Origin: a virus
Length of the DNA: 33,494 nucleotides
IMG/VR virus record: IMGVR_UViG_3300033146_005064
Coordinates: 1 to 33,494 of that record
Strand: one strand, 5' to 3'
The first letter of the stretch is position 1. Each line of letters opens with the position of its first letter. Under the pieces are notes generated by a model. That model had not been told where the DNA came from. It was given only the letters and a program-made list of their open reading frames with translations, and searched no databases. Position numbers and translations under genes: made by a program. This document shows, piece by piece, positions 1 to 33,494 of this stretch.

Positions 1-3000
1 CTTGACAGCTGCTCCCACATCCGGTAGTTGCAGATTTCTCACAAAAAGAAGTGCACGTTGTAATACAACCCACTGTACAATTTGTTGAACACCAATTTAG
101 CAGCTGAGTTTGCGCGGATACCGTACACCCCCAAACGGAGCAAGTGTGATAATAAGCATCTGGCCCTTTTTGATTATCTGCAATAGATTCAGAATTTGTC
201 TGACATTGACACATACAATCAGCTTCACACGCTGTAGTACAGCTTATTGAGGTGCAAGAAACTTGGCAAGCACACCTACAAGCCGCGGTGCAATATAAGG
301 TGCATCCGGTTTGCAAATCTGACATGCAGTAGGCCTGACACGCCATGGCGCAATCTGTAGTTGTATTTGAAGTCTCACAATATCCTTGACAAGAACTGAA
401 ACAAGCACCCTCTGTAGAGCTAGTACAACCAACAGTCATAGGGCCGGCCGTCTGGCAATCGCACTGACAATCAGTCATACAGGAGCCCGTCGTGCAATTA
501 GTTTCGCAAGTCACTTGGCAAAAACATTGGCAACCCACTGTGCAATAATCTGCACACCCTGTTGTCGCGGAAGTCATGCAAGTTGCCTGGCAAGAAATTA
601 CACATGCCCCTGGCCCCGGGTCAAATGTTTGGGAAGCTGTTTCACAGTTTTGTTGACATCCAGTCTGACAAGCAGAAATACAGTGCCATACGCCTTCTGT
701 ACCTGCTGCCTGGCAACAGGTTTGACAAGATCCTTCACAGGCTGCCTGGCAAGATAATTCACATTTGCTTTGACAACTTGTAAAATCTTCAGCTGTTAAA
801 GATGCTGTACAACCTGAACGACAGCTACCTGCTTCACATAAATGTTGACAAGAAGTTTCGCAAGCGATTTCGCAACAAGCGGAACATCCTTCGGTTCCCG
901 TTTGGCAACCTGCTTGGCATGTGGTGCAGGACGTGGATGTACAAGCCCCCTCGCACGCTAACTGACAAGTAGCCTGACAAGCAGATTCGCAGCCAACAGT
1001 ACAAGATCCTTGACATGAGGTTTGACATGACCCCGTGCAAGATTCCTCTCCGGCTTGGCAAGCAACGGTGCATCCTATTTCGCAACTCCCGATACACCCG
1101 GTAGTAGCACCGCTTGTGCACCCGGTTGTTTGGCAAGATTGCTGGCAGCTGGTTTCACAGGCTGAAGATTCGCACCCGCCAGCGACGCAAGCGGTTTCGC
1201 AAGTATTTTGACACGGGACAGGAACCCAATTTTCTACAATTGTAGTACAGACTAATTCGCATGTGGTCACACAGGAAAGCGCACAAGCTGCCTGATCTGC
1301 CGTTTCGCAGGCATATTGGCAACTCGTTTCTGCTGTAGATTGACAATATTGCTCGCATGTGGTAGCGCAGCCTGTTTCGGCTACCATCTCGCAGGAATTG
1401 GAACAGCCTGGATATATAGCAGCCCTTGCTACTATCTCTATGCGGTCAATATCTTCGCTGCTACCAGGGGAATAATTTTTCTGGATAATTTGTGCTTTTG
1501 TTTCGCCTACGAAATCCCCGAAGTCAACCGTTATCCAGTCGAATTTTTTCAGATTCGACAGGTTTAAAAATCCAAGAAAACGGATTTCCTGCCAGATTTT
1601 CGAAAGGCGATCTAACCAGAATTGAGCAATCGAATTAGCCACAGAAGGCGAAGAAATCGCCCAAAAGTTTATATCTTTCGTGCGCTCCCTGTACGCCGCT
1701 ATGCTTGTGGTGTCTTCTATTGCCGCTTGTTTTTGTTTTCCATTCTCGAAATAGCTGTATACTATGCGATTGTAGAAATTATTATTCTGTGATATCTCAA
1801 GGCTCTGATCTTCTCGCTGGTGATCTTCTATTTTTTCGACGATAGAGCCAACTTGATTTTCGAGATATTGAAAACTAAGCTGGTTATCCTGGAAAAAAAT
1901 TGATAGGCGGGATTGGAAAGCGAGGTCATAGAGGATATCGAAACCGTATTGGTTCGCGAGAACAAAGCCAAGCTCAATCTGAGCCGTTTTCAATTTCGCG
2001 GCGGCTTCTGCTACTACGTCGAAATCGGCCGGGTAACTAAGCCCAAACATTTTCGCAAGATGGACGATAATATCCACGGGGTTAGAATAATTTTCTCCGG
2101 TCATCGTGCAGAAAAAATTATTATCTTCATACGGCCCATTTTTTAAGTGCTTTATATCGAATGGAAGCGAAACGGTGGTAACGGCATGTCCCAGGGAAGC
2201 CAGCCAAGTATTGTCGGAAAGATTAAAGGTGGCATAATCTTTGTCTAGTGCCACCCAGGCATCTACTTTTTTTTCTCCGGATACGATTACCCCGCCCTTC
2301 AGCTCGACTAGGGGGATATCCTGAGAGATTCCATCGTGTAGAATCCAGGTATATTCGTCTAATTTTTCCGCTACCTCCGTGCCTGCCTCATGTGCTTGTG
2401 CTTTCGAATATACCTCATAATAATAATTCCCCCATACGCTCACAACGGGCAGCATAGAATCAACACCGTAGAGATTGGGGGAAGTGAAGCTTGAAATTGT
2501 GCGAGTAGTTTCTACGCCATTAATCCAAAACCTAACCTGGTAGCCAATCCAGTTAGGCCCATTTGGAGCTAGGTTAGCCTGAAAACTAGCTCCGTTTGTT
2601 GTTGCCGCTGTGGTCCAACCGGACGCAACGACAATGCCACGCTGGGCGATAGTCAGGAGTGAGCCGGCCACCTTGCCATAGATCAATTCGCTCCCAACGA
2701 AAAAATATTGATAGGTATTTTGCGTGAATTCTTCGCTATTCGCCACGACTAATTTTGTAGAATTCCATTTGCAGCTTTTTACCAGGCTGGTTCGCTTCGG
2801 TGCGATCACCTGGATAGCGTGCTGTGATCTTTTCACGCTTCCAATCACCATTGGGAGCATAGTCCCTTCTGCATCGGGGTTTATCCTGGAAAAAATAGAG
2901 GAGGTAGCGAGGGTGCCGAGCCGCTTGGTATATTTTTCTTCTAGCTTTTCTAGTGCTATAACGCACTCTCGCATATTTTCCAGGATTCGTACAGATTCTA

Positions 3001-3316
3001 TTTGTGCGTAGTAGTGCATTATTGGCGATTCATCAGAAAAAAATACAAGAATTTCTACGGGTATGCTTTTTGTTTTTTCATCATCGAAATATTTTTTCAA
3101 AACAATGTCCTGGTCAGAAAGCTTTATCGTGGCCGAGCTGATTTCTCCAGATCCCTCTAGTGCTATGTCCCGGAATTCACCCCAATCTATTACTAGGTTT
3201 TTTTTTTCTAATTGATAGCCCCGGACGTCTATATCGCTATAATATTTCGTCCCGCTAGACCAGGCTATTTTTATTATTTTTCTCGGCAGCGAACACAGTA
3301 AATCTTTCGTTGTCAT
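1..3316 (-). CDS. Tail hub/tip protein with giant Cys-rich C-terminal domain (5' part, crosses circular junction)
   Basis: The start is ATG at 3316. I read the frame codon by codon with no stop down to base 1; it continues through the 82-bp redundancy to TAG at 33249, giving 3480 nt or 1159 residues. Residues 1 to about 637 look like a tail hub or tip protein: the gene follows tape measure and distal tail genes, and the region is rich in beta-type sequence and aromatic residues. No catalytic motif was recognised. From about residue 638 composition changes abruptly to Cys, Thr, Ser, Gln, Glu, Gly and Ala. I count about 108 Cys in about 520 residues, mostly spaced C-x3-C, with Gln, Glu or Thr often following each Cys. 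The signature C-x3-C-R-C-x-C-x3 occurs near 240-300 and again at the C-terminus. The hub role is inferred from synteny; the Cys domain is seen directly. It is likely matured by the radical SAM enzyme downstream. Confidence 0.85.
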   Translation of the reverse strand, partial: MTTKDLLCSLPRKIIKIAWSSGTKYYSDIDVRGYQLEKKNLVIDWGEFRDIALEGSGEISSATIKLSDQDIVLKKYFDDEKTKSIPVEILVFFSDESPIMHYYAQIESVRILENMRECVIALEKLEEKYTKRLGTLATSSIFSRINPDAEGTMLPMVIGSVKRSQHAIQVIAPKRTSLVKSCKWNSTKLVVANSEEFTQNTYQYFFVGSELIYGKVAGSLLTIAQRGIVVASGWTTAATTNGASFQANLAPNGPNWIGYQVRFWINGVETTRTISSFTSPNLYGVDSMLPVVSVWGNYYYEVYSKAQAHEAGTEVAEKLDEYTWILHDGISQDIPLVELKGGVIVSGEKKVDAWVALDKDYATFNLSDNTWLASLGHAVTTVSLPFDIKHLKNGPYEDNNFFCTMTGENYSNPVDIIVHLAKMFGLSYPADFDVVAEAAAKLKTAQIELGFVLANQYGFDILYDLAFQSRLSIFFQDNQLSFQYLENQVGSIVEKIEDHQREDQSLEISQNNNFYNRIVYSYFENGKQKQAAIEDTTSIAAYRERTKDINFWAISSPSVANSIAQFWLDRLSKIWQEIRFLGFLNLSNLKKFDWITVDFGDFVGETKAQIIQKNYSPGSSEDIDRIEIVARAAIYPGCSNSCEMVAETGCATTCEQYCQSTAETSCQYACETADQAACALSCVTTCELVCTTIVENWVPVPCQNTCETACVAGGCESSACETSCQQSCQTTGCTSGATTGCIGSCEIGCTVACQAGEESCTGSCQTSCQGSCTVGCESACQATCQLACEGACTSTSCTTCQAGCQTGTEGCSACCEIACETSCQHLCEAGSCRSGCTASLTAEDFTSCQSKCELSCQAACEGSCQTCCQAAGTEGVWHCISACQTGCQQNCETASQTFDPGPGACVISCQATCMTSATTGCADYCTVGCQCFCQVTCETNCTTGSCMTDCQCDCQTAGPMTVGCTSSTEGACFSSCQGYCETSNTTTDCAMACQAYCMSDLQTGCTLYCTAACRCACQVSCTSISCTTACEADCMCQCQTNSESIADNQKGPDAYYHTCSVWGCTVSAQTQLLNWCSTNCTVGCITTCTSFCEKSATTGCGSSCQ

Positions 3317-3318
3317 GG

Positions 3319-3669
3319 CTATACCTCTATCAATTCTATTTCAGCGTTATATCTCCCCGGCCTCACCTCGATCACCTCTAGCGTGGTATTCCCGAAAATA
3401 ACATTATAGATTTTTCCGGTCCAATCCGAAAACTCAAATTCGTTTCCACCCAAAACGCTAAAGGCGTCCCGCAATTTTTCCGCGTCTTCTACGCACAAAA
3501 ATAGAAATCTAAGTTTTATAATTTTATTTTTCGCTGCTTTTTCGTATCGGTAGTAAGCGCCTGATGCCGCTCTACCTAGGACTACGCCGCTATCCACTAG
3601 ATTTTTATTTTCTAGTTCTGGGTTTTTTTCTATCTTCCAGGATTGGTTCCCGTAAAAAAAATATATCAT
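3319..3669 (-). CDS. Distal tail-like / minor tail protein
   Basis: A 116-residue protein between the tape measure gene and the hub, the usual place of a distal tail or minor tail protein. Its start ATG overlaps the tape measure stop (ATGA), and its stop lies two bases before the hub ATG, so the three are translationally linked. Several predicted beta strands and a D-W-T-G-K-I-Y segment fit a small tail-tip protein. No catalytic motif was seen. The assignment rests on synteny and size. Confidence 0.6.
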   Translation of the reverse strand: MIYFFYGNQSWKIEKNPELENKNLVDSGVVLGRAASGAYYRYEKAAKNKIIKLRFLFLCVEDAEKLRDAFSVLGGNEFEFSDWTGKIYNVIFGNTTLEVIEVRPGRYNAEIELIEV

Positions 3670-5333
3670 TTCGCAAGCCCCCCAACTACCACCATTTTTT
3701 TCTTTTGAGCTGGCTGAGCTGTATTTTTTGCCACCTTTTTCAGGCTAGAGTCGATACTTTTCAGCGTGGCAATATCTATTCCTCCAACCGCTGACATGCT
3801 TTTATTAGCGTCCGCCCCCGTCCTTTTCCACAATGAAGAGAAAAATTCTTTCTTATACGCTTCATCTTCTTTCTGTCGTTGCATGTTCGTAGGAGAAAAA
3901 TATTTCTCTATTCTTTGTCTCTGTTGCCTCCGCACTGTTTCTTTGCTTTGGAATTGGGCTTTTATTGCTCCCCAGATCGAGGGGGAGTAGCCAGTCTTAT
4001 TTGTGAATTGTGCGGTTTTTTTGTCTCCAAAAGCGTTTACCGTTTCTATCCCTGGTATTTTCTGGATCATCGCTAGCTTTTTTACGGCGTAATATGTTTT
4101 CATTATGGCGATTGTCGCTAGGTTGGTTGCTGTCCGAATTCCATAGAATGAAGCAACCAGCGTACGCCCAACAACCTGCCCAAGCTGCTCTATATCTTGC
4201 AATTTGCTAGCAGTTTCATCTAGCGCGCTAGAATCTACTTTCATAACAGCATCAGCGAAGCCGGCGCCGAGGCTGACGCTAGCGGCCTTGATGAATGCAG
4301 TCATTTTTTTAATTTTGAAACTGATACCCTCTTGCATCTTGCTAACGGCTTCATCGGCTGCCCCGGCCCCGTTTTTTATTTTTTTTAGGAAGTCCGCATA
4401 TTTCTGTGATTGTTTTCCAGTAAGAGCCATAACGCCAGCTAACGCTCGCACGTTTCCGAAGAGCTTACTTAGTATTGTAGTGTTTCCCTTCGCGGCGACA
4501 TAGACATTTGTGAGGAATTTTTGCATTCCTTGTGCTTTTAACGCAGCTAGGTTGAATTGAATGCCAAGCGTTTTGGCCGTTTTTGCTGCGTCCGATGTCG
4601 GTTTGATGACGCTTGTCAGCACCTGTTTTATTTGTGTTACTGCTGAGTCTGTTTTTACTCCGGCGGTGGTCATCGTGGCTATAGCCGCTCCGATTTGCTC
4701 AAATGATACGCCAACTTGGGAAGCGATCGGCGCAATCTGTCCAACGCCAGTAGCCAGCTCCGAGAAGGTAGTTTTGCCAAGCTTTATCGTATTGAAAAAA
4801 ATATCGTTGGCGACCTTGGCTTGCTTTACTTTGTCTGTCGTTCCGCCTAAGTCTTTTCCATAGGCATTCACGACAGAGGTTAGCCCATCTACGGCAGTAG
4901 CTACTGAAGTAGCTCCAGCGGTAGCGGCATCTGTAGCTACAGCTAGAAATTTTGTGGCGTTCGCTGCGGGGATACCAGCGGAAATAATGTCATACAGTCC
5001 CTTCGTCATCGAGGTAAAATCTGTTTGCCCCGTATTTACTGCCAGCTGCAAGACCTCCCTACCCATTCCTTTTATTTTTTTCGCAGAGATGTCTGTAAGC
5101 GTAGAAACCTGTCCCATCTCTTCTTCGAATTTCGAGAAATCTTTCACGCCTTTTAGGGCAGCCGCTCCGATGGCCGCACCTGCTGCTGCAGCAGCAACGC
5201 CAATAGCCTTCATTCCGGCCTTCGCTATTTTCGTAAAGGATCGCACCTTCCTTTTCGAATCGTTCAATGAGCTTGTCAGCTTTTTATTGTCGCCCGTGAT
5301 ATCGATTCTTACCTGCTCGACCATAGTTGCCAT
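3666..5333 (-). CDS. Tail tape measure protein
   Basis: A 555-residue protein, basic at the N-terminus, with a hydrophobic Ala/Gly-rich stretch at about residues 38-61, followed by Ala/Thr-rich helical sequence with the pattern of the phage tape measure core domain (N-x-G-Q-T-D-F, G-L-Y-D-I-I-S-A-G, and S-x-F-E-Q-I-G-A-A-I-A-T-M). It sits between the tail chaperone pair and distal tail genes, exactly as expected. At roughly 0.15 nm per residue it predicts a short tail of about 80 nm. The RBS AGGA lies 7 nt before ATG. No peptidase domain is visible, unlike many tape measures of Gram-positive phages. Confidence 0.9.
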   Translation of the reverse strand: MATMVEQVRIDITGDNKKLTSSLNDSKRKVRSFTKIAKAGMKAIGVAAAAAGAAIGAAALKGVKDFSKFEEEMGQVSTLTDISAKKIKGMGREVLQLAVNTGQTDFTSMTKGLYDIISAGIPAANATKFLAVATDAATAGATSVATAVDGLTSVVNAYGKDLGGTTDKVKQAKVANDIFFNTIKLGKTTFSELATGVGQIAPIASQVGVSFEQIGAAIATMTTAGVKTDSAVTQIKQVLTSVIKPTSDAAKTAKTLGIQFNLAALKAQGMQKFLTNVYVAAKGNTTILSKLFGNVRALAGVMALTGKQSQKYADFLKKIKNGAGAADEAVSKMQEGISFKIKKMTAFIKAASVSLGAGFADAVMKVDSSALDETASKLQDIEQLGQVVGRTLVASFYGIRTATNLATIAIMKTYYAVKKLAMIQKIPGIETVNAFGDKKTAQFTNKTGYSPSIWGAIKAQFQSKETVRRQQRQRIEKYFSPTNMQRQKEDEAYKKEFFSSLWKRTGADANKSMSAVGGIDIATLKSIDSSLKKVAKNTAQPAQKKKMVVVGGLAK

Positions 5334-11987: not shown

Positions 11988-14900
11988 CTACTCCTCCAAT
12001 GCATGAAATTCTACGAGTTCCGCTATTGCTTTTCTAATATGAGTTGGATATCCTGCGGGGGCAGCCATGCCATAATAGATTTCGGCTCCCGTCGTCAATG
12101 TTTCATATGTCTCTTTCGCTCCATACGCACGAGGGAACACCACTCCCTGCTTCGGTGTTTTTTGGCTCCATATGACCGGAAAATACCACACATCCTTGTC
12201 CTTCACCTCATACTTGTCAGGCGAAAAATAATATTTTCGAATATAGTTCATATTCGAAAAAAACAAATCACACTGTGGAAACTTTCTAGTTTTTAATCCG
12301 TTATTTTTCTCCCAAAAAGCATATTGCCGGTATTGATAAAAATAATGCTTAGCGTGCATCGCCTCATGAAGAACAGCATACGTCATGTCCAATTTTGTTG
12401 CCCGGGGATTAGCGTATAGCGTAACGTGGCCTTCTTGGGAGCAAGAAGCCATGACCAACAATTTTTTTGAAGGCTTATCCATAATCGTAATCTCGTTGAT
12501 ATATTGTAACACATTATCAGATCGAGGAATTTCTATTGCGTCCTCGATGTTTTCCAAAAGGCTGAGGATTTTTTTTCTATTCTTTTTTGTAATAGGAGGT
12601 ATAGTAATTCTCCTCTTCAGTTTAATCTGCATTTTGTTTGCGAGTTTTTCAATTCTAGCATCTGCGCATATTATTTTTTGTGGGGCGAGGACACTCCTTT
12701 CCTCAGTGGCATAATATTCCCCGCTATATTTATAATGAAAATCTACCTTGTATTCATATTTTTTTCTGTCTTCTGCGAAAAGATTTTCATCCCACACTAC
12801 GGAATCTTCCACGGGATCTTCCACGGAATTTATCTTCGGCTTTGGCTCCGGCTTCGGCTTTGGCTTCGGCTTTGGCTTCGGCTTTGGCTTCGGTTTCGGC
12901 TTCGGCTCCGGCTTCGGCTTTGGCTTCGGCTCCGGCTTCGGCTTTGGCTTCGGCTTCGGCTTCGGCTTTGGCTTCGGCTTCGGCTTCGGCTTCGGCTTCG
13001 GCTTTGGCTTCGGCTTCGGCTTCGGCTTCGGCTTTGGCTTCGGCTTTGGCTTGGCCAGGTAATCGCCTACTGTAGACTGTGGCGAAAATTTGAGCTTTTT
13101 AAGCTCAAACTTGCCTTTTTTCCATTTTTCATAGTTCTCACCAAGCACGTTTTTTGCGAAACCGGGGTTTTCCGCTTCCTGTTTCCACAGCCAGGTCTCA
13201 TAATTATCGCTGGCAGCTGGCCCGAATTCGCTGGCTCGTTGCTTTTCCTTCCCTGTCCAGTGCTTCGATACTGGAATATATAAGCACCTGCACAATGGAT
13301 GCACTGGAATTCTAGGAGCATCATTGATGCTTTTCTCTCCACTAGGGGGATCATTCCAGAAGATTTCTCGATCGTAGCTACCGCATACCGGGCACGTCCG
13401 TCTATCTAGCGTAGCAGTGTACTCTATACCCGAAAGAAATTTTTCATTTTCACGATACGTGTTCAAGATAATATCGTTCTGAATGCGCTGTCCTTCTGTG
13501 CGGACAATTCTTTCTATATTCACCGCGCTATGGGCCAGCTCTTTTCGAATATTCCTCGAAATTGTGGCGTATCCTTCGCCCGCTTTCATGCCATCCGCGA
13601 ATATTTTTTCTATTTTTCTAGAGCTAAGCACCGTGTCAACTCTATCAATCCATTTTTTCCCGTCCGGAGCCCAGACTGTATTGATTACCTTATTAATCGC
13701 TGCTTTGTTCGGTGTGAATATTTTTGTCTTGTCGTTGTATTCTGTTAACCGTAGGGGAGAAAGCACTTTTCTTTTCTTCTTGTCAAATGGCTTTGGCTTT
13801 GGCTTTGGTGTGGGCTTTGGCTTTGGCTTCGGCGCGGGCATAGGCGCGGGCGTAGGCTCTGGTGATGGCTTCGGCTTTGGCTTTGGTGCTGGGACATCGT
13901 CCCCGAAGTCCCCCCAGTCAATATCTTCAATCCCAGCGTCTACTGCTTCAAGCCTTTTAGGCAAATGGAGATAAAATAAATCAGTTTCCTTACCCGCGAC
14001 AAGAGAGGCCTCTCTTTTCCCATACGAAGCAGGCGCCCCATCAACAAGCTGTGCGGATTCCAGCTTATTCATTATCGCTTTATATTTTTTTTCGTCTATC
14101 CCATACTTTTTTTTTAGGTCGCCAAAAAGCTCGTCTGCTACAGTTGCCCCTTTCCTAGTATTTCTATGCGCTATCTCTCTAGCAATTTGCTTAGCTAGAT
14201 ATTTTTCCTTTTCCACTCCGCCCAAAGACGAATAAATTTGACTAGTGGTTTCGCCAGGCATGCCGTTCACGCCAAAAAATTCTGTAGCAGAAATCATTTG
14301 GCTAGTTTCTTTTGCTTTTCTTAGCTCGCCAGCGACGCCAATATCAAAAGCAAGCTCGCCTTCAATGCGAGAAATAACACTGTCGAAGACCTCCTTGTCT
14401 ACAGCAGTATCGATTTTTTTTATCGCCGAGAATAGGGCATCTTTTGCTATGCTTTCGCCTACCTGGATATCCCGGAAGGCTTCGTTTATCAATTTCGCAT
14501 AATATTCCTCGTGCTGTATTGGCGCAGCTACGGCTTTTTTTGCCGCCTCCAGTAATCGCAACCTTGATTTTTTGGCGTCTTCTATTATTTTTTTTGCGAC
14601 ACCTGGCTTTGGAATTACCGCTTTCGTCTCCCCGAGGATTTCCGCCGTCTCTATCTCCTCGATAATCTCGTTAATTTCGTCTTCTAGCTCTTTCACGGCA
14701 ATAGCCCCGACGCCAAGGTCGATTATTTCTATAGCGTTAGAGATAGACGAAACATCATGAGCTCGGTGTTTTAATTTTTTTACATCAACTTTTTTCTTTC
14801 TAGCGTGTTTCCGCTGCTTCAGCTTTCTTTTTTTTCGTTTCAAGTCCCTGATTGGCTCGTTCCCGGATCTGTCGACATATTCCCAATCGGACCAGCCGAC

Positions 14901-15380
14901 CACATCGACTATATCATCCATAACGACCATGAGATAAGCGAAGTCTTCCGGCTTCAACTTCCCGTCGCTGACAGCCTTCCAGAGCTGCGAATAATTTATT
15001 ATTTTTCCGGCTTTTTTCTTTGCCTCGATTATTTGCCTCAATTTTTTTGCGTATTTTTCGAGATTATTTTTATTTTTTTCTTCCTTGGCCGCTATGACTA
15101 TGCCAGACTTTAAGCTTTTTAACTCTCCGGCCATGTTAACAGCCATTTTTTCGCCTAATTCCTGGAAAAAGTCCTTGATATCGTCCTTGATTTCATCTCG
15201 GAAAAGCAGCATGGAAGATATCAGCTCGCCGGGCTCGTCTGTTTTTGGAAAATAATCATGAAAGTTTTTTCGGAACATGCGAATGAAGGTATTTTCTTCG
15301 CCTATATTTTCATGTACCAGCTTAACTATGTTCGCAGCTGTTCGTTGTTCTGCTGCGAATATTTTCTTAGAAAGCGGCAT
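11988..15380 (-). CDS. MuF-like head morphogenesis protein with KP-repeat linkers and C-terminal zincin-like domain
   Basis: A 1130-residue protein following the portal. Residues 1-490: charged helical region. About 500-530: first Pro/Lys linker. About 610-715: MuF (SPP1 gp7 / Mu gpF) domain with [14 protein letters not shown] and H-P-L-C-R-C. About 773-848: a near-perfect Lys-Pro dipeptide array with a few Glu-Pro. About 860-1130: an extra domain containing V-L-H-E-A-M-H (about residue 1000), the HExxH signature of zinc metallopeptidases. MuF proteins with variable C-terminal enzyme or toxin domains are known in phages, and such a domain may be packaged and delivered. Start overlaps the portal stop. 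Confidence 0.85.
12834..13057. repeat. Hexanucleotide repeat coding Lys-Pro dipeptides
   Basis: About 37 copies of a GGCTTC/GGCTTT hexamer on the plus strand (some GGCTCC variants) encode the long Lys-Pro/Glu-Pro linker of the MuF protein. The third bases vary between C and T, while the protein repeat is kept. Such an array is prone to copy-number change by slippage. A second, shorter and less regular Pro/Lys array lies at 13790-13890. Confidence 0.9.
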
Positions 15381-16526: not shown

Positions 16527-18053
16527 TCAAATAAATTTTCCTGATATTTTTTCACCTACGCTACTACCGCTAACAAGCTCTGTCGCTACTTCGGCATATA
16601 CAAGAGCGTGCATGAAGTGATCTGGGCCGCTCTCCGCATAGTATGCTTCCCAATCTCCCCGCCTGGTTTGTCTATAGCTCCTGATCGTATTATGGAGATG
16701 CTCATACAAGCTTTCATTTTCCGCTAGACCTTTTTTAATTCGGATTGTGCCTTTCTGGAATCGTGAAAAAACCTGGTCAATTATTTCTGTGCGGTGAACG
16801 GAAACAATCCCGCGGTTATTATCGAGCACAATTTTATCTTTCTGGTTTGGATAGAGACACCGGAACCCCGAACAATTTAAGCCTTCAATTACTTCCTTCG
16901 CCTTCGTCCTCTCTGGTTGTGCGTCTATAACCACCATTTCCGCACGATATTGATCTGCTAGCTTTCCGATTCTATCCCAGCGGGCGCGCTCAACGGCAAG
17001 CACGACAAGTCCGTATTCCGTGGCCCTGGCAATAACGCAATAATGCGGTGTTGCCTGAGAAACGTCTATCCCTATCACAACAGGCCCCCGAAACTCAACT
17101 TCTGAAGAAATAGCCTCGTCATAATTTACGCGAGATATTCGGCTGCCTTTCGATTCGTGGGGCATTGCCAGAACAGAATTATACAGCTCCTGCGTCCGTG
17201 CCTCATCTCCCTCTGCATCAATTATTTTCTGGCATAATTCTTTCATACTCACTGTAGGAGAATATAATTGATTCACATATCGGCATTTCCTGCCATTGCC
17301 TTTCTGCTCTAGTCTGTATTTCCCCCGCGTGTTCATCTTCATTCGCTGAGAATTTGTCCATGGTTTTTTGCATTTCGAGCAAAAGAAGAAACCGCCCTCA
17401 ACGTTCACATTAGACAGAGAAAGGAGCTGCACTTTCCCACAATGAAAGCACGGAACAACAAAATTATACTGGTCAGCCGTCCTATATATCGCGTGAATTC
17501 CTTTTCCTGGCAAGCCTGGCGTGCTAAGCCTAATTACTTGTTTCTTTTCGTGCCCCGACAATCTTTCATAGGCAAGTGCCATCATTTCATCTTTCATTTC
17601 ATCGAATTCATCTAAGACGAGAAGACCAACGGAGACCTCCTTTAGTTGTTTTCTCGAATTAGCTCCGCGTAAATATAGCGGTATCCCAGCGATTAGCTTC
17701 TGCCGGACATTATCAACCTCACAAAGCCCATACAAGTTTCTCGAATTCCAAATTATAGGGTTTAATTTTCCCGCACTAAATTCTTTTGTCGCTACGCTGT
17801 CAGGAAGGAGGTACAAAACTCGCACGCCGTCGAGGAGGACAAACAGCACGCGATAAATAACTCCCGTAGTAAAACCAAGCTGGGCCGCTTTCATAACAGA
17901 ATGCTCCGGTGATTCGTCCAGCATAAAATCTTGTAAATACTTATATTTCGTATAAACAAGATTTGATTCAATTTTAGCTAGATGGATAGCGTCCCTATAG
18001 TGGACCTTTTTCACTATCTTTTTTTGTGCGATTAGCGCGCTAAGCAGTCGCAT
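16527..18053 (-). CDS. Terminase large subunit (GpA-like)
   Basis: A 508-residue packaging ATPase/nuclease. Walker A-like K-A-A-Q-L-G-F-T-T-G at 55-64; Walker B L-L-V-L-D-E-F-D-E-M at 144-153; a zinc ribbon with Cys202, Cys205, Cys225 and Cys228 typical of the lambda GpA family; then an RNase H-like nuclease domain with Asp330 (V-I-G-I-D-V-S) and Asp377 (V-V-I-D-A), and G-P-D-H-F-M-H near the end. It overlaps the upstream methyltransferase gene by 14 nt and precedes the portal. It cuts and packages the phage DNA with TerS. Confidence 0.92.
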   Translation of the reverse strand: MRLLSALIAQKKIVKKVHYRDAIHLAKIESNLVYTKYKYLQDFMLDESPEHSVMKAAQLGFTTGVIYRVLFVLLDGVRVLYLLPDSVATKEFSAGKLNPIIWNSRNLYGLCEVDNVRQKLIAGIPLYLRGANSRKQLKEVSVGLLVLDEFDEMKDEMMALAYERLSGHEKKQVIRLSTPGLPGKGIHAIYRTADQYNFVVPCFHCGKVQLLSLSNVNVEGGFFFCSKCKKPWTNSQRMKMNTRGKYRLEQKGNGRKCRYVNQLYSPTVSMKELCQKIIDAEGDEARTQELYNSVLAMPHESKGSRISRVNYDEAISSEVEFRGPVVIGIDVSQATPHYCVIARATEYGLVVLAVERARWDRIGKLADQYRAEMVVIDAQPERTKAKEVIEGLNCSGFRCLYPNQKDKIVLDNNRGIVSVHRTEIIDQVFSRFQKGTIRIKKGLAENESLYEHLHNTIRSYRQTRRGDWEAYYAESGPDHFMHALVYAEVATELVSGSSVGEKISGKFI

Positions 18054-19422
18054 TTTCTGCTTCCAGAAAACAAAGATTGAGACTTTCGGGGATAGCTGGG
18101 AAATTTTCGCTTATCTTTTTTATATCCCCCTTATAGAAAACTAAAACTTGTTGGTGCGTGTTGACAAGCTTTCTGTTTCCAAATTGCCCCCTCGCACGCA
18201 AAGCGGCAGTCCCGCAAACAGTGAGATAAACAGCATTATTATAGAGACAAAGACCGGCTTCACGGAACGCCTCAATCGTGATGCCGGGGAAATCTATATA
18301 TACGCCTTTTTCCCTCACGTCGCCGACGACGAAAGCAGCAAATCTGTTTTCTCTAAGCATTGCGCACGACTTCACTATCGCCTCTGTATATTTTTCCCTA
18401 AATTTTTCTAGAGGCATGTTGCTAATATCACCGGGGAGATCGCTATATTTTTCTAGCGAGAAATAGGGCGGGCACGAAAAAACAAAATCAAATTCGTTTT
18501 CAATAGCGTCGTCTATTTTCGAGCTGTTCCCGATAATCCAATCGGGCTTTGCGATAATTTTTTCCGAGATATCAGACAAGTTATTAAAATTAGCTTCCAC
18601 CTGCTCGGGCCGGATATCAACCCCTGTATATTTCCGGCCCAATATCCCAGAGATAATTCCACGAACAGAACCGCCCGCATACGGATCTAGCACATGACCA
18701 TCATTTGGGCAAAACCACCGGAGCAGAATCTCGCAAAGAACAGGATCGAAAATTGATGTCCCCGCCCAAGCCCCGACGGGATCACCTTTTTTTCGCTGTG
18801 CTAAGTGCTCCATGCTCTTCATAGTTTCGATTCTTCCCTCATGGCTACGAAGCCCAATTTCTAGCCACTTTTTTTTTCTTTCCATCCAGTACCCCGCCCG
18901 GCCATCTAGCACGGAAAACGGCGGGACTATATAGTCCCGTCGCAACGCACCCGATTCACCCTCCTCGTATTTTTTTCCAAAATCTTCTTCCCCATGTTCA
19001 ATATCGATCTCGTCAATATCGTAATTGGCACCCAGCAACTTTTTTAGCTCGGCGTCTTCAAACCCGATTAATTCGATATCGTAATCTGCATCGAGAATCT
19101 GCTGCATTTCAATAGCTAGTAGTTCATTGTCCCAACTAGATTCTGCCAGCCGATTCTCTGCTATCCTGAAAGCTTTCACCTGCAAGTCACTAAGTCCATC
19201 GGCTACGATGCAGGGCACAGACTGAAGACCTGCGCTTTCCGCTGCCAATATTCTGCCATGGCCACAGATAATTTCGCCATTTTTTTTTATGAGAGCAGGA
19301 ACAAGAAAGCCAAATTCCTTTATGCTCCCTGCTATTTTCGCTATTTGGCTAGCGGGGTGTTTTTTTGCATTCCCTATATACGGGATCAATTCGCTTAGCT
19401 TTTTTTCTTTAATTTTTAGCAT
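18040..19422 (-). CDS. ParB-like nuclease domain fused to DNA methyltransferase
   Basis: A 460-residue two-domain protein. Residues 1 to about 110 are ParB-like, with G-H-G-R at 54-57 and A-E-N-R-L near 88-92. The C-terminal part is an amino-methyltransferase: SAM-binding D-P-Y-A-G-G at 246-251 and catalytic S-C-P-P-Y at 316-320 (N4-cytosine or N6-adenine type). Such fusions are common in phages between TerS and TerL, where they are thought to modify phage DNA or affect packaging. It overlaps both terminase genes, so it is made with the packaging motor. The target site is unknown. Confidence 0.85.
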   Translation of the reverse strand: MLKIKEKKLSELIPYIGNAKKHPASQIAKIAGSIKEFGFLVPALIKKNGEIICGHGRILAAESAGLQSVPCIVADGLSDLQVKAFRIAENRLAESSWDNELLAIEMQQILDADYDIELIGFEDAELKKLLGANYDIDEIDIEHGEEDFGKKYEEGESGALRRDYIVPPFSVLDGRAGYWMERKKKWLEIGLRSHEGRIETMKSMEHLAQRKKGDPVGAWAGTSIFDPVLCEILLRWFCPNDGHVLDPYAGGSVRGIISGILGRKYTGVDIRPEQVEANFNNLSDISEKIIAKPDWIIGNSSKIDDAIENEFDFVFSCPPYFSLEKYSDLPGDISNMPLEKFREKYTEAIVKSCAMLRENRFAAFVVGDVREKGVYIDFPGITIEAFREAGLCLYNNAVYLTVCGTAALRARGQFGNRKLVNTHQQVLVFYKGDIKKISENFPAIPESLNLCFLEAENATA

Positions 19423-26355: not shown

Positions 26356-26713
26356 GATGCGTCCTCAACTTGTGTTTGATGCGTCTTCAACTTGTGCGTG
26401 ATGCGTCCTCAACTTCACGATATAGTGACATGAATGTTTTAATGCGTCCTCAATCTGTAGAGATAGATTTTATGCGGATTATAGAACGATTCTTGTTGTT
26501 GCTAGATTGAATAATAGTGACATGAATATATATTCGAGTCACTCAACAGTGACATGAATGTTTTGATGCGTCCTCAACTTGACAACTTGAATCAATGATT
26601 CGTGTTACTATAGTGCTAGAATGGCTGATATTGCTGAGGTAGCGACAGTGACATGAAAAAATATTCGAGTATGTATATAATGACTCGAATATTGCAAAGC
26701 GTCTTCAACTTGA
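26356..26713. repeat. Iteron array, probable replication origin
   Basis: The 17-mer GATGCGTCCTCAACTTG recurs at 26356-26372, 26378-26394 and 26400-26416 at an exact 22-bp period, with variants at 26441-26457 and 26697-26713 and an exact copy at 26565-26581. A second repeat AGTGACATGAAT is at 26424, 26516, 26548 and (one change) 26647. A 22-bp period puts copies on the same helical face, as in iteron origins bound by Rep. The origin role is inferred. Confidence 0.7.
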
Positions 26714-30119: not shown

Positions 30120-31163
30120 TTACACCTCCATGTGTTTAATTATATTATTAAAAACTGATACAGGTTTAATTTGTTCTATCACAGCACAATACCTATGATG
30201 ATCTCTGTATCTACTAAAGTTCCAGCCCCTTTCCCACCTCATATAGCAAGTAGGTTTACAAGTATCTGGTATTTTGGTGTAATCTATTTCATCATGTTTT
30301 AGTTGCATATATAGACCTGTTTTCTTTCCTATGTTATAGGGGCGGGAAGTTATTTGACCTGATGTTGCGCCAAATATCCCAATGCACTTCTTGCTTAATA
30401 AACCTGAAAGGTGGTAGAAACCGGAATCAGGTGTGACCATTATGTCACATGCAAGCAATCTTCCTATAGTGGTGCTCCAATCAGCATCAATAGATAGTAA
30501 TATATTACTTCTAACTTTTATGTCTTTGTGCCACCGATAACATACATCAAACAATATGACAGCTATGTTTTCCAATTTAAGCAGCCTAATAAGCTCATCA
30601 ACGTAATAGTAAGGATACTCCCTACTCTTACAGGTAGCCCCTACTTGGATGCCTACAATAGCCTTGTATCGCTTTAAAGTATCTTTAGCTAGTTCCATCT
30701 TTTTAAGGTCTTCTTCTGTTGGAACTAGTTTAGGTCTTATAAAAGGCACCCCTGCTTCTCTACACCAAAGCTCTGTCCGGTCTTGGCAACAAACCCCTTT
30801 AGTGGCCGGCTCATGTAAATAAGGAGGGCACCACCCATCAACAGTTATATCATAATTAATGCCAACGTCTAAATGTTTGTGTTTGGTTTCATCTATAATT
30901 TCGTCTCTAGGTCTTACCATATTATCACAAGGGAAAAATACGTGATAAGCATGATTTGCCCTACCCTTAAACAGCTCTTCAAGGAAACCTGCACCAAAAT
31001 AATGTACTCTTGCAGTTGGATATTTTTTCATTAGCCCTTCTCCAGCTGCAAGAAATCTTATAGAATCACCCAAGCCTCCCGCCTCCCTAACATACCTAAT
31101 ATATTTCACCTTCGAAGAATTGGCCTGGGGGAATTTTCGCAACGTTATTTTTTTTCGGAACAT
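30120..31163 (-). CDS. GT9-like (heptosyltransferase family) glycosyltransferase
   Basis: A 347-residue GT-B fold protein. N-terminal V-R-E-A-G-G-L-G-D-S-I-R nucleotide-sugar motif at residues ~25-36; second half with V-G-I-Q-V-G-A-T-C-K-S-R, and the hallmark D-I-M-V-T-P-D-S-G-F-Y-H-L-S-G-L-L, then G-I-F-G-A-T-S. These match GT9 (ADP-heptose transferase) enzymes. It overlaps the radical SAM gene by 19 nt, so both are coupled. It may glycosylate a phage protein or change host LPS; both are inferences. Confidence 0.8.
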   Translation of the reverse strand: MFRKKITLRKFPQANSSKVKYIRYVREAGGLGDSIRFLAAGEGLMKKYPTARVHYFGAGFLEELFKGRANHAYHVFFPCDNMVRPRDEIIDETKHKHLDVGINYDITVDGWCPPYLHEPATKGVCCQDRTELWCREAGVPFIRPKLVPTEEDLKKMELAKDTLKRYKAIVGIQVGATCKSREYPYYYVDELIRLLKLENIAVILFDVCYRWHKDIKVRSNILLSIDADWSTTIGRLLACDIMVTPDSGFYHLSGLLSKKCIGIFGATSGQITSRPYNIGKKTGLYMQLKHDEIDYTKIPDTCKPTCYMRWERGWNFSRYRDHHRYCAVIEQIKPVSVFNNIIKHMEV

Positions 31164-32701
31164 TTTTCTAAATCACAGCTACAAGAATCTTTCTTCTTTT
31201 CAATAGAACAAGAGCAATCGTTCCGGCTTTCCACCTCTACAGGGTACATACACGTTGTTTGGCATTCGTAGCTACAGCTTTTCGCTGCGTCTGCGGGCAG
31301 CTGCTTTACTAGCTTTTTTTCTGCCACGATGGTAGGGGCTAGATTGTACTGTATTCGAGGCTTGCGGCTTGTTTTTGAAAATCTTTTCAATTGTGCGGGT
31401 GTGAGCTGGCTAGCGATCCAGAGGCTAGCTTCTATTGCGAAAGTATGGAAAAGGCACTCCATCTCCGAAGGCTTGTGAGTATTATTATGCACGAGCATAG
31501 AGTTTGCACGGCACCCACCACCGCACAGATACTTTTTCCAGCAATTCTGGCAATAGTCCCTAGAACAGAGGCGGTTATCCATCCATTTCGCTTGCTTAAT
31601 CCTGTTTATCCTCCCGTTTTCACCTATGTGCGTTTTATTTTCGCGATGACAAGCGGCTATATTTCCGCCTGCACCGATACTAATATATCCTTTTCCCGCT
31701 CCGCACTCTGTGAAAGAAAACTCACGGTCGATAATTCTCTGTAGATTCATGTCGAAGTGATGAAGCGACGGGTTGCGTCCTGCCTGGATTTCTGCGAGAT
31801 ACCATTTCGCGGTAGCTTCATATTGTGGCTTGAATTTCGCCCTAATTTCTTTTGCTGTGTTTTTTTCGAAACGCGAAGAATCTGAAGTAGCACAACCTTC
31901 GCCGAGACTGGCTGGCTCCACAGAAACATGCTCGGCTAATCCTTTGTACATCAGGGAATTAAGCACTTGCGTACTAGAAAGTAGCGCGCTGCTTTCATTA
32001 TCGAACGTACCTCGCAGCGTAATAGCTGCCTGCTTCCCTGCTTTTCTATACGCTCCAGCCAGGAACCGAAGACCGCGGATTGTGTCTTCCCAGGTGCCTG
32101 TTCCATCTTCATAAGGACGATTATTATTGTGCGTTTTTTCGTCTCCATCCACAGAGACAATCCACGTAAAATTATTCTCTGCGCAATATTCCGCTATCTC
32201 TTCCGTGATTAGTGTAGCGTTCGTAGTGATGTGGATAGCTGCTTGAGGCTTCCCAATCTTTTCATGCTGCTTTTTCGCCCATTCGTTCACCTCGAAAATC
32301 ATTTCCCACATCATAATGGGTTCGCCACCGAAAAAACCAAATTGATACGGGCCAGCCCCCTGGAATTTCTGGAGATATTTTTTCACCTCATCCGCCTGGA
32401 TCGAATTTTCCTGGTCGCAATAATGCTGCTTTACGAAACAATACCTGCAATTTAGGTTACAGGCATACGTGGCTTGAAAAACAATGTGCTTGAATTTCTG
32501 CTCTGGATAATACGAAATTGTTTTATGTTCTTCGCACCCTTCGATCTCGACATTTTCAGAATCTTTCAAAGCATACGCCAGCATACTGTTAGCGTCATAT
32601 ACAATCTTTTGCCCGAGATACTCGAATTTATGGAGCTTGGGCTTACCAGGCTCCTTGTCTACTTTATTTTCGTTTATTGAGAATGGATTCAATAGCTTCA
32701 T
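31145..32701 (-). CDS. Radical SAM/SPASM peptide maturase
   Basis: A 518-residue enzyme. Radical SAM [4Fe-4S] motif C81-x3-C85-x2-C88; SAM-binding G-G-E-P at 125-128; SPASM domain with C333, G-x4-C351, then C379, C384-x2-C387-x5-C393-x3-C397 and C416, holding two auxiliary clusters. This is the architecture of enzymes that modify peptides, for example making Cys thioethers (sactipeptide, ranthipeptide, QhpD). Uniquely, residues 476-514 add eight Cys, starting C-x3-C-x3-C, like the substrate repeats. RBS GGAAG. Its substrates are likely the neighbouring Cys-rich proteins; inference. Confidence 0.88.
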   Translation of the reverse strand: MKLLNPFSINENKVDKEPGKPKLHKFEYLGQKIVYDANSMLAYALKDSENVEIEGCEEHKTISYYPEQKFKHIVFQATYACNLNCRYCFVKQHYCDQENSIQADEVKKYLQKFQGAGPYQFGFFGGEPIMMWEMIFEVNEWAKKQHEKIGKPQAAIHITTNATLITEEIAEYCAENNFTWIVSVDGDEKTHNNNRPYEDGTGTWEDTIRGLRFLAGAYRKAGKQAAITLRGTFDNESSALLSSTQVLNSLMYKGLAEHVSVEPASLGEGCATSDSSRFEKNTAKEIRAKFKPQYEATAKWYLAEIQAGRNPSLHHFDMNLQRIIDREFSFTECGAGKGYISIGAGGNIAACHRENKTHIGENGRINRIKQAKWMDNRLCSRDYCQNCWKKYLCGGGCRANSMLVHNNTHKPSEMECLFHTFAIEASLWIASQLTPAQLKRFSKTSRKPRIQYNLAPTIVAEKKLVKQLPADAAKSCSYECQTTCMYPVEVESRNDCSCSIEKKKDSCSCDLEKCSEKK

Positions 32702-32728
32702 TTTTTTATCTTCCTTTTTCCTGAAAAA

Positions 32729-32935
32729 TTATTGGGCCGCTGTTTCACAGGTAAATTGACAATTACATCGGCACCCTGTAGTACAGTATATCTGGCAACT
32801 AGTTTGACATCCGGTCATACATGCTGCCATACAGCTAGCTTCGCACCCAGTTGTACATGCCGTTTGACAATAACTAGTACAGTTTGTAGTGCATGATGAT
32901 TGACAAACTGTTTGGCAGGCGGTACATGTCGCCAC
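32729..32935 (-). CDS. Cys-rich repeat peptide, candidate RiPP-like precursor
   Basis: With GTG start at 32935 (GGAAG seven bases before, one base after the preceding stop) the peptide is 68 residues with 17 Cys, nearly all C-x3-C, ending C-T-T-G-C-R-C-N-C and Q-F-T-C-E. A TTG at 32998 would give 89 residues with a Lys/Arg-rich leader. It is a small paralogue of the tail hub's Cys domain and lies directly before the maturase gene. Role as free precursor, chaperone or second substrate unknown. Confidence 0.75.
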   Translation of the reverse strand: MATCTACQTVCQSSCTTNCTSYCQTACTTGCEASCMAACMTGCQTSCQIYCTTGCRCNCQFTCETAAQ

Positions 32936-32936
32936 C

Positions 32937-33122
32937 TTACCGCTTCCGTTTTCTATATTTTCCTTTTTGGGCTTCCTCTTTCGGGGCCAGAAACCCAATA
33001 TTCCAATATTCGTGCGAGGTATATTTCACGGGTACAATTCCATGCGCTAAGTGAAAAAAAGCTCCAGCGAGGAGCTTGAGAAAAACCAAAAAATTCAAGT
33101 AGAAGTGCGTGAAATAATTCAT
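32937..33122 (-). CDS. Small membrane protein (61 residues)
   Basis: From ATG 33122 with GGAG upstream: hydrophobic segment (F-L-V-F-L-K-L-L-A-G-A-F-F-H-L) near residues 11-25, an aromatic middle part and a very basic C-terminus (K-G-K-Y-R-K-R-K-R). Its stop is one base before the GTG of the Cys peptide. Family unknown; may be membrane tether or transport helper. Confidence 0.6.
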   Translation of the reverse strand: MNYFTHFYLNFLVFLKLLAGAFFHLAHGIVPVKYTSHEYWNIGFLAPKEEAQKGKYRKRKR

Positions 33123-33133
33123 ATTTTTTTCTC

Positions 33134-33232
33134 CTATACAAGAATAAACAATAGACTGGACAAAAGAATTAACATAAATATAGCACAAAATAGCCTGATG
33201 CAAAAAACAAAAATAGAAAATATTGCTTTCAT
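33134..33232 (-). CDS. Tiny hydrophobic peptide (32 residues)
   Basis: ATG 33232 with GGGGG upstream, TAG at 33134. Almost entirely hydrophobic, a single membrane span after Met-Lys-Ala, starting 17 nt after the hub stop codon. Below common length cutoffs, but the RBS and composition support it. Function unknown. Confidence 0.55.
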   Translation of the reverse strand: MKAIFSIFVFCIRLFCAIFMLILLSSLLFILV

Positions 33233-33248
33233 TTTTCCCCCTATCAAC

Positions 33249-33494
33249 CTATCCGCTAGCAGTCTGGCACGTGCCCGTTTGGCAAAAGCATTGGCAACTC
33301 TCTTCGCACCCTCCAGATCGACAACTAGATTCGCACGTCACCATACACGCACAGCGGCACCCCACAGTGCAATACAGCGTGCAGCCGGTTTGTATTTCAT
33401 TCATACACCATCCTTGACAGCTGCTCCCACATCCGGTAGTTGCAGATTTCTCACAAAAAGAAGTGCACGTTGTAATACAACCCACTGTACAATT
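33249..33494 (-). CDS. Tail hub protein, C-terminal end of the Cys-rich domain (3' part)
   Basis: This is the continuation of the gene starting at 3316; the two parts join because bases 33413-33494 equal bases 1-82. The unique segment 33249-33412 encodes the last 54 residues, with 13 Cys, ending in Ala-Ser-Gly and TAG. It contains C-T-V-G-C-R-C-A-C, closely matching C-T-T-G-C-R-C-N-C in the separate Cys-rich peptide at 32729-32935. A second start inside this segment is not needed, because the frame is open across the junction. Confidence 0.85.
   Translation of the reverse strand, partial: NCTVGCITTCTSFCEKSATTGCGSSCQGWCMNEIQTGCTLYCTVGCRCACMVTCESSCRSGGCEESCQCFCQTGTCQTASG
33413..33494. repeat. 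82-bp terminal redundancy identical to bases 1-82
   Basis: The last 82 bases repeat the first 82 exactly, and the same reading frame runs through both. This is what an assembler leaves when closing a circular or circularly permuted molecule. It lies inside a coding sequence, so it is probably an assembly overlap rather than a packaging-defined terminal repeat. Unique genome length is 33412 bp. Confidence 0.95.

Follow-up and report, generated by a model that had tools for sequence, protein, structure and literature searches.

Closest described systems

In the CXXX-repeat systems defined by NCBIfam, a SPASM radical S-adenosylmethionine (SAM) enzyme (TIGR04115) is found beside a C-x3 repeat protein (TIGR04117). 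Such pairs are a known kind, so far only predicted from genomes. We analyzed a viral DNA stretch of 33,494 bases (IMG/VR record IMGVR_UViG_3300033146_005064, referred to as the window), which in a wide sense contains a system of this type: a SPASM radical-SAM enzyme gene linked to a giant Cys-repeat tail protein, a 68-residue Cys-rich peptide and a GT9-type glycosyltransferase. The first-pass annotation of this DNA was not aware of any described system, a statement that has to be withdrawn in view of the two NCBIfam families, although the enzyme itself is not a member. Our literature searches (most subscription papers were outside their reach) revealed no report on radical-SAM systems with CXXX repeats or on maturases of phage tails, and none of the papers searched describes a virion protein crosslinked by a radical-SAM enzyme. 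Judged from sequence, the apparently new elements are a separate viral enzyme clade with its own repeat code (C-[E/Q] instead of the C-[S/T]-G of the NCBIfam systems), tail proteins as probable virion substrates (placed by gene context) and the GT9 partner.

Several characterized enzymes serve for comparison. CteB forms a Cys-Thr thioether in SCIFF and QhpD links Cys to Asp/Glu in QHNDH (PMC8326336). PapB likewise connects Cys with Asp/Glu in PapA (PMC9413430), and in a known NxxC peptide the acceptor is an Asn three residues before the Cys (PMC8326336, PMC9413430). CteB, the SCIFF maturase of thermocellin, is the best profile and fold match of the window enzyme over nearly its whole length and has the same pattern of SPASM cysteines. 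Its substrate is a 45-residue clostridial peptide, in contrast to a long repeat array in a putative virion protein. PapB (freyrasin, ranthipeptides) offers a parallel with its repeated Cys motif, several crosslinks per substrate and acidic acceptors (PMC9413430). Its motif is CX3D/E, however, whereas the window has a Cys at every fourth residue with Glu or Gln at position +1. QhpD introduces Cys to Asp/Glu thioethers into a structural protein that is not a ribosomally synthesized and post-translationally modified peptide (RiPP) (PMC8326336), with few fixed links in one enzyme subunit as opposed to a repeat domain.

Related gene arrangements are present in the cultured phages SPN3US, SEGD1 and CR5 and in Erwinia relatives, where a pair of radical-SAM genes lies by a CXXX protein near virion or tail genes. 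In SPN3US, gp163, gp164 and the CXXX gene gp166 adjoin the virion protein gp167 and the tail protein gp168 (PMC5105663); the CXXX protein of this type corresponds to PHROG 6085. These phages differ from the window in their enzyme branch, in a C-S-G-x code and in stand-alone CXXX proteins of 130-150 residues, and no GT9 is annotated in the stretches read. The CXXX genes of the cultured jumbo phages are shortened, unannotated or annotated on the wrong strand in L254 5501-5909 (SPN3US) and L250 3115-3920 (CR5, CR5_157), and the SPLA and 1252 records list no CXXX gene. Bacterial CXXX systems use short peptides. In bacterial genomes the TIGR04115-like enzymes occur mostly beside CXXX proteins, some with a phage-type N-terminal part and some in other settings. 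Campylobacter phage F379 was considered as a further case and discarded: besides a radical-SAM gene it encodes a protein with cysteines, but these do not form a clear CXXX array.

The SPASM enzyme

The CX3CX2C motif of the window enzyme (C81, C85 and C88, about 32438-32461) and its seven SPASM cysteines (C333, C351, C384, C387, C393, C397 and C416, about 31454-31705) are invariant in an alignment of 12 sequences, which identifies it as a radical SAM/SPASM protein and agrees with the first-pass description of an enzyme with all cluster cysteines intact. The closest solved structure is that of CteB (PDB-entry 5WGG), with a profile E-value of 3.9e-80 and TM-scores of 0.65 (on query) and 0.76 (on target) for the structure model (pTM 0.78). 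Residues 15-61 of the model form strands resembling a RiPP recognition element (RRE) without the RRE helices and match CteB residues 6-31 weakly. An RRE-like part reduced to strands would fit substrates without a leader. The C-terminal residues 445-518 constitute a disordered, Cys-rich tail.

No curated equivalog cut-off was passed; the best models were those of the nif11, SCIFF and PapB families, all near 150 bits. The scores were 44.9 bits for TIGR04115 (cut-off 350), 152.6 bits for the SCIFF maturase model TIGR03974 (425), 147.9 bits for the PapB model NF047865 (340) and 130.5 bits for QhpD (453). The 68-residue peptide reached 17.4 bits with TIGR04117 (cut-off 50) and 14.0 bits with the SCIFF precursor model PF13165 (27). 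Since the cut-offs are missed, we did not file the enzyme under TIGR04115, SCIFF or PapB.

The Cys-repeat proteins

The open reading frame (ORF) of the giant protein reaches base 1 and continues through the 82-bp terminal repeat to 33249; the protein therefore has 1159 residues and is not the fragment that ends at 33249. Of its 112 cysteines, 108 are located in the last 522 residues and four in the first 636. The CXXX domain contains 69 C-x3-C pairs, compared to 22.1 ± 3.8 in shuffled sequences (maximum 36, n=2000), is rich in Ser and Thr, and has Glu, Gln or Thr directly after the Cys in 71% of its repeat units. In the 68-residue peptide the corresponding number of pairs is 14, compared to 3.8 ± 1.5. 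Both proteins, together with one relative phage, have the motif C-x3-C-[RQ]-C-x-C in common. The two Cys-repeat proteins, their shared signature and the frequent Glu, Gln and Thr after Cys, all pointed out in the first-pass annotation, were confirmed.

A longer module, [YI]C-x3-C-[RQ]-C-x-C followed by C-x3-C-x-C-x-C-Q, is found near the C-terminus of the giant proteins of the window (residues 924-1159) and of the relative G009 (residues 1032-1254), which it closes; a shorter form closes the small peptides.

The N-terminal part of the giant protein matches the phage tail family PF13550 with an E-value of only 0.0024, below the cut-off, and a second member gives the same weak match. The tail assignment relies on gene order (after the tape measure) and on homologs (L147, L149 and L157/L163). 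On these grounds the protein is most likely a virion component, probably of the tail tip. A profile search of the N-terminal part against the PDB gave nothing useful, and a tblastn search with the giant protein against cultured phages gave no match. Tail proteins of at least two kinds carry the CXXX domain as a fusion (domain shuffling): the window and G009, L149 and L163 have a hub-like protein, L153 and L166 one of the phrog_48 type.

A split into leader and core, as in RiPP precursors, was seen neither in the 68-residue peptide nor in its G009 homolog (51% identical, encoded directly after the G009 giant gene); both begin almost at once with Cys units. The small hydrophobic ORF preceding the peptide gene may be coupled to it (Table 1).

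Co-occurrence of enzyme and repeat

Searches for relatives with single proteins (the enzyme or the terminase) in viral contigs returned nothing, as did a search of bacterial genomes with the enzyme alignment. Two-sequence alignments used as queries did recover relatives in viral contigs. The alignment search yielded 23 viral loci; once duplicates and three distant enzymes had been taken out, 16 distinct loci were left. CXXX-repeat proteins are encoded in 13 of these 16 loci, always upstream of the enzyme and on the same strand. Two of the remaining loci are short fragments (L152, L161), and one is a true exception (L160). In contrast, none of 78 control loci from terminase-related phages contained genuine CXXX repeats, the two matches being simple-sequence repeats. 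With the fragments left out the comparison is 13/14 versus 0/78 (Fisher p = 6e-15). This co-occurrence check in related phages had been proposed in the first-pass annotation, and its outcome strongly favors the pairing. When 41 terminase-related records were searched as a whole, two carried the enzyme, and genuine CXXX repeats were confined to these two (p = 0.0012); of two further pattern matches, one was a TGCC microsatellite and the other due to chance.

A reverse test started from CXXX repeats alone. The plain CXXX DNA pattern mostly matched low-complexity repeats, so later counts were limited to entropy-filtered ORFs. Eight records were picked in which the matching ORF was not obvious simple sequence. 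In six of them the distance between the CXXX gene and a SPASM gene is at most about 4 kb, and in three of the six the two genes overlap or are adjacent. The two records without a SPASM gene were the most Gly-Pro- or Ser-rich, of low complexity; all six genuine CXXX genes are SPASM-linked. The cultured Cronobacter phage CR5 is among the records with both genes. Two viral enzymes from this test, with 444 and 473 bits, exceed the TIGR04115 cut-off, and another falls slightly short of it.

A motif scan returned G009, a syntenic relative of 53 kb in which tail protein, peptide, enzyme and GT9 are all kept, with identities of 35% for the giant Cys protein, 45% for the enzyme and 48% for GT9, which overlaps the enzyme gene. 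Several tail genes are located between peptide and enzyme in this phage.

Two further viral records show deviating features. In L167 (178 kb) a distant SPASM gene adjoins a 286-residue Cys-rich protein of another type. In L126 (G001, 292 kb, 709-3012) an intein-like insert is located exactly within the CX3CX2C motif of a CXXX-linked radical-SAM gene.

Repeat code by enzyme clade

A quick tree, in which several branches are long, unites the window enzyme and 15 other viral enzymes in one group (SH-like approximate likelihood ratio test 92). The TIGR04115 branch is separate from it and contains viral as well as bacterial sequences (starred branch 97). The repeat code can be predicted from the clade of the enzyme. 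Glu or Gln follows the Cys in 83% of 777 repeat units that accompany the clade of the window enzyme (70-99% per locus), compared to 4% of 602 units with TIGR04115-type enzymes (0-16% per locus), where Ser/Thr and then Gly predominate. The per-locus ranges of the two groups never overlap at position +1, and at positions +2 and +3 the frequency of Glu/Gln does not differ between them. A difference confined to +1 is expected if the enzyme reads the residue after the Cys, and it supports a thioether chemistry on Glu, Gln or Thr.

In another record (L127 811-2281, G003), a CXXX protein that also follows the C-[E/Q] code is encoded near a SPASM gene that is PapB-like and does not belong to the window clade. 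The code is therefore not tied to one clade alone.

Proposed reaction and alternatives

In a four-residue repeat the residue after one Cys is also located three residues before the next and five after the previous one, so that Glu, Gln or Thr at this position fits the in-vitro geometries of both the NxxC and the SCIFF peptides. Based on this fit we propose that thioethers are formed serially, repeat by repeat. The phage would make a tail-tip protein with a C-terminal 520-residue C-[E/Q/T]-x-x domain together with a free 68-residue copy of the repeat. The SPASM enzyme would process the repeats one by one, abstracting a hydrogen atom from the Glu, Gln or Thr side chain after each Cys and joining that carbon to the Cys sulfur. 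The domain would thereby be converted into small thioether rings arranged like a ladder. Such an extension of the tail would be rigid, redox-stable and resistant to proteases, and it may be in contact with the host. GT9 may add a sugar, with ADP-heptose as the likely donor, to the same Ser/Thr-rich domain. We assign a probability of roughly two thirds to such serial stapling of the tail-tip domain, possibly accompanied by glycosylation. The genes, the repeats, their co-occurrence, the correlation between clade and code and the fold kinship to CteB were observed directly; we infer the reaction, the acceptor, the glycosylation target and the biological role. The RiPP-like modification of a virion protein proposed in the first-pass annotation is for the most part supported as far as a recurring enzyme-substrate system is concerned, with the thioether chemistry still an assignment by homology. 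That proposal lacked two features found here, the conserved GT9 partner and the recurrence across many phages.

Several points weigh against this proposal. The modification is not visible from sequence, and a thioether on Glu, Gln or Thr is a best guess by homology. The correlation between clade and code could be due in part to the common descent of each repeat lineage. Some repeat units have no Glu, Gln or Thr after the Cys, and L160, a 44-kb record, encodes the enzyme and GT9 but no CXXX protein. The predicted structure of the N-terminal part of the giant protein reached a pLDDT of only 35. The peptide shows no clear leader, and only strands are left of the RRE-like part in the enzyme, so substrate recognition would differ from that of CteB. 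Finally, gp166 is not mentioned in the main text of the SPN3US papers.

The enzyme might modify the CXXX repeats to a product other than a thioether, such as an epimer, a C-C crosslink or a hydroxylated residue, with the cysteines free, in disulfides or bound to metal. SPASM enzymes indeed catalyze many reactions (PMC8326336), and the enzyme stays below all curated cut-offs, with near-equal best scores for the nif11, SCIFF and PapB models. We nevertheless regard this as unlikely, because a thioether synthase, CteB, is nearest by both profile and fold and because the cysteines are paired with known kinds of acceptor in a single phase only. It is highly improbable that the system primarily serves to make the free peptide as a secreted RiPP with an antibacterial or signaling function, the tail repeat being a secondary copy that might act as a docking or adhesive tip. 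The retention of a free CXXX peptide in G009 and the short peptides of the bacterial systems would fit such a role. In most relatives, however, the CXXX repeat is solely tail-fused, the surroundings of the enzyme gene showed no gene for export or for a protease, and the peptide has no leader. Least credible of these explanations is a tail fiber stabilized by disulfides or metal, with the enzyme acting elsewhere (on tRNA, a cofactor or a host protein). A shared compact late operon is no proof of function, and other phage radical-SAM genes such as QueE exist, but the pairing is seen again and again, with distinct clades of the enzyme and in many phages, enzyme and CXXX protein are jointly absent in relatives, and the clade predicts the code.

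The pairing of enzyme and repeat in many unrelated phages suggests a stapling of tail proteins by the phages themselves, through unusual chemical bonds. More tentatively, in many tailed phages a radical-SAM enzyme and GT9 might turn a Cys-repeat domain of the tail into a thioether-laddered, glycosylated polymer whose code is set by the enzyme clade. If serial stapling is correct, covalent stabilization chemistry would be added to phage tails, and the CXXX-repeat systems predicted only from genomes would obtain a function. Thioether-laddered, glycosylated tail domains would form a new class of virion protein and give SPASM chemistry a new biological role; enzymes that place tens of crosslinks per protein without a leader would be useful as a tool. 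The general question is testable now because a related pair occurs in SPN3US, which is cultured and genetically tractable and has published virion proteomics.

The GT9 glycosyltransferase

The glycosyltransferase exceeds the PF01075 gathering score of 22 (Table 1), and its best PDB match is the lipopolysaccharide (LPS) heptosyltransferase WaaC (1.9e-17). In 13 of the 16 distinct viral relatives the GT9 gene is the next gene after that of the enzyme; in L158 one more glycosyltransferase-like gene is located in between. All GT9 members have a C-terminal Cys motif in common. The TibC/AAH autotransporter heptosyltransferases, which glycosylate a repetitive adhesin, are also GT9-like with a Cys motif, but the C-terminal motif of the window protein has another spacing. 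In TibC-like protein heptosyltransferases an iron finger (Cys339, 342, 358 and 370) is inserted in the catalytic domain (PMC4358343). Assignment of the window GT9 to the TibC type was rejected, as the profile E-value was 0.0017 compared to 1.9e-17 for WaaC and the iron-finger Cys spacing is not reproduced.

GT9 could also be unrelated to the tail and alter a host surface sugar (superinfection exclusion) while sharing the operon. To this possibility, which is compatible with thioether stapling of the tail tip, we give somewhat less than even odds. It would suit a family of LPS heptosyltransferases with WaaC as the best PDB match, and no match to GT9 appeared in the TIGR04115-type phage loci searched. 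On the other hand, the GT9 gene overlaps or abuts the enzyme gene in the 13 of 16 relatives, and its members keep the conserved Cys motif.

Genomic context and other features

The record looks complete and closes on itself via the terminal repeat. A terminase, a portal protein, a MuF-type head protein, a tape measure and the closed genome bear out the assumed phage origin and identify a tailed phage. The first-pass annotation had confined the system to 31145-33249; enzyme and peptide are inside this interval, but the cluster is wider and includes GT9 and the tail protein that runs across the record ends.

Table 1. Positions of the repeat-modification cluster and the adjacent tail genes in the window.
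Feature	Position	Strand	Remarks
Direct terminal repeat, 82 bp	1..82		exact copy at 33413-33494
Giant tail protein, first 1105 codons	1..3316	(-)	N-terminal about 636 residues, tail part; CXXX domain from about 1408 towards position 1
Small tail protein, 116 residues	3319..3669	(-)	between tape measure and giant tail protein
Tape-measure-like tail protein	3666..5333	(-)	phrog_991 match 6.2e-49; fixes tail context
GT9-type (heptosyltransferase-like) glycosyltransferase	30120..31163	(-)	PF01075 40.5 bits; 19-base overlap with enzyme gene
Radical SAM/SPASM enzyme, 518 residues	31145..32701	(-)	PF04055 67.8 bits
Stand-alone CXXX peptide, 68 residues, 17 Cys	32729..32935	(-)	GTG start; no obvious leader
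Small hydrophobic ORF, 61 residues	32937..33122	(-)	stop abuts GTG of CXXX peptide; GGAG resembling a ribosome-binding site upstream
Giant tail protein, C-terminal end	33249..33494	(-)	33413-33494 repeats 1-82

Homologs of the 116-residue tail protein stand before the giant gene in L149, L157 and L163. The MuF-type head protein (11988-15380) contains long PKPK repeats at about 12793-13100 and, in its C-terminal part, a HEAMH motif typical of zinc metallopeptidases. At 18040-19422 a DNA methyltransferase domain is fused to a ParB-like nuclease domain. A 39-nt direct repeat occurs three times at 26415-26708, with a spacing of 124-131 nt, in a region without long ORFs.

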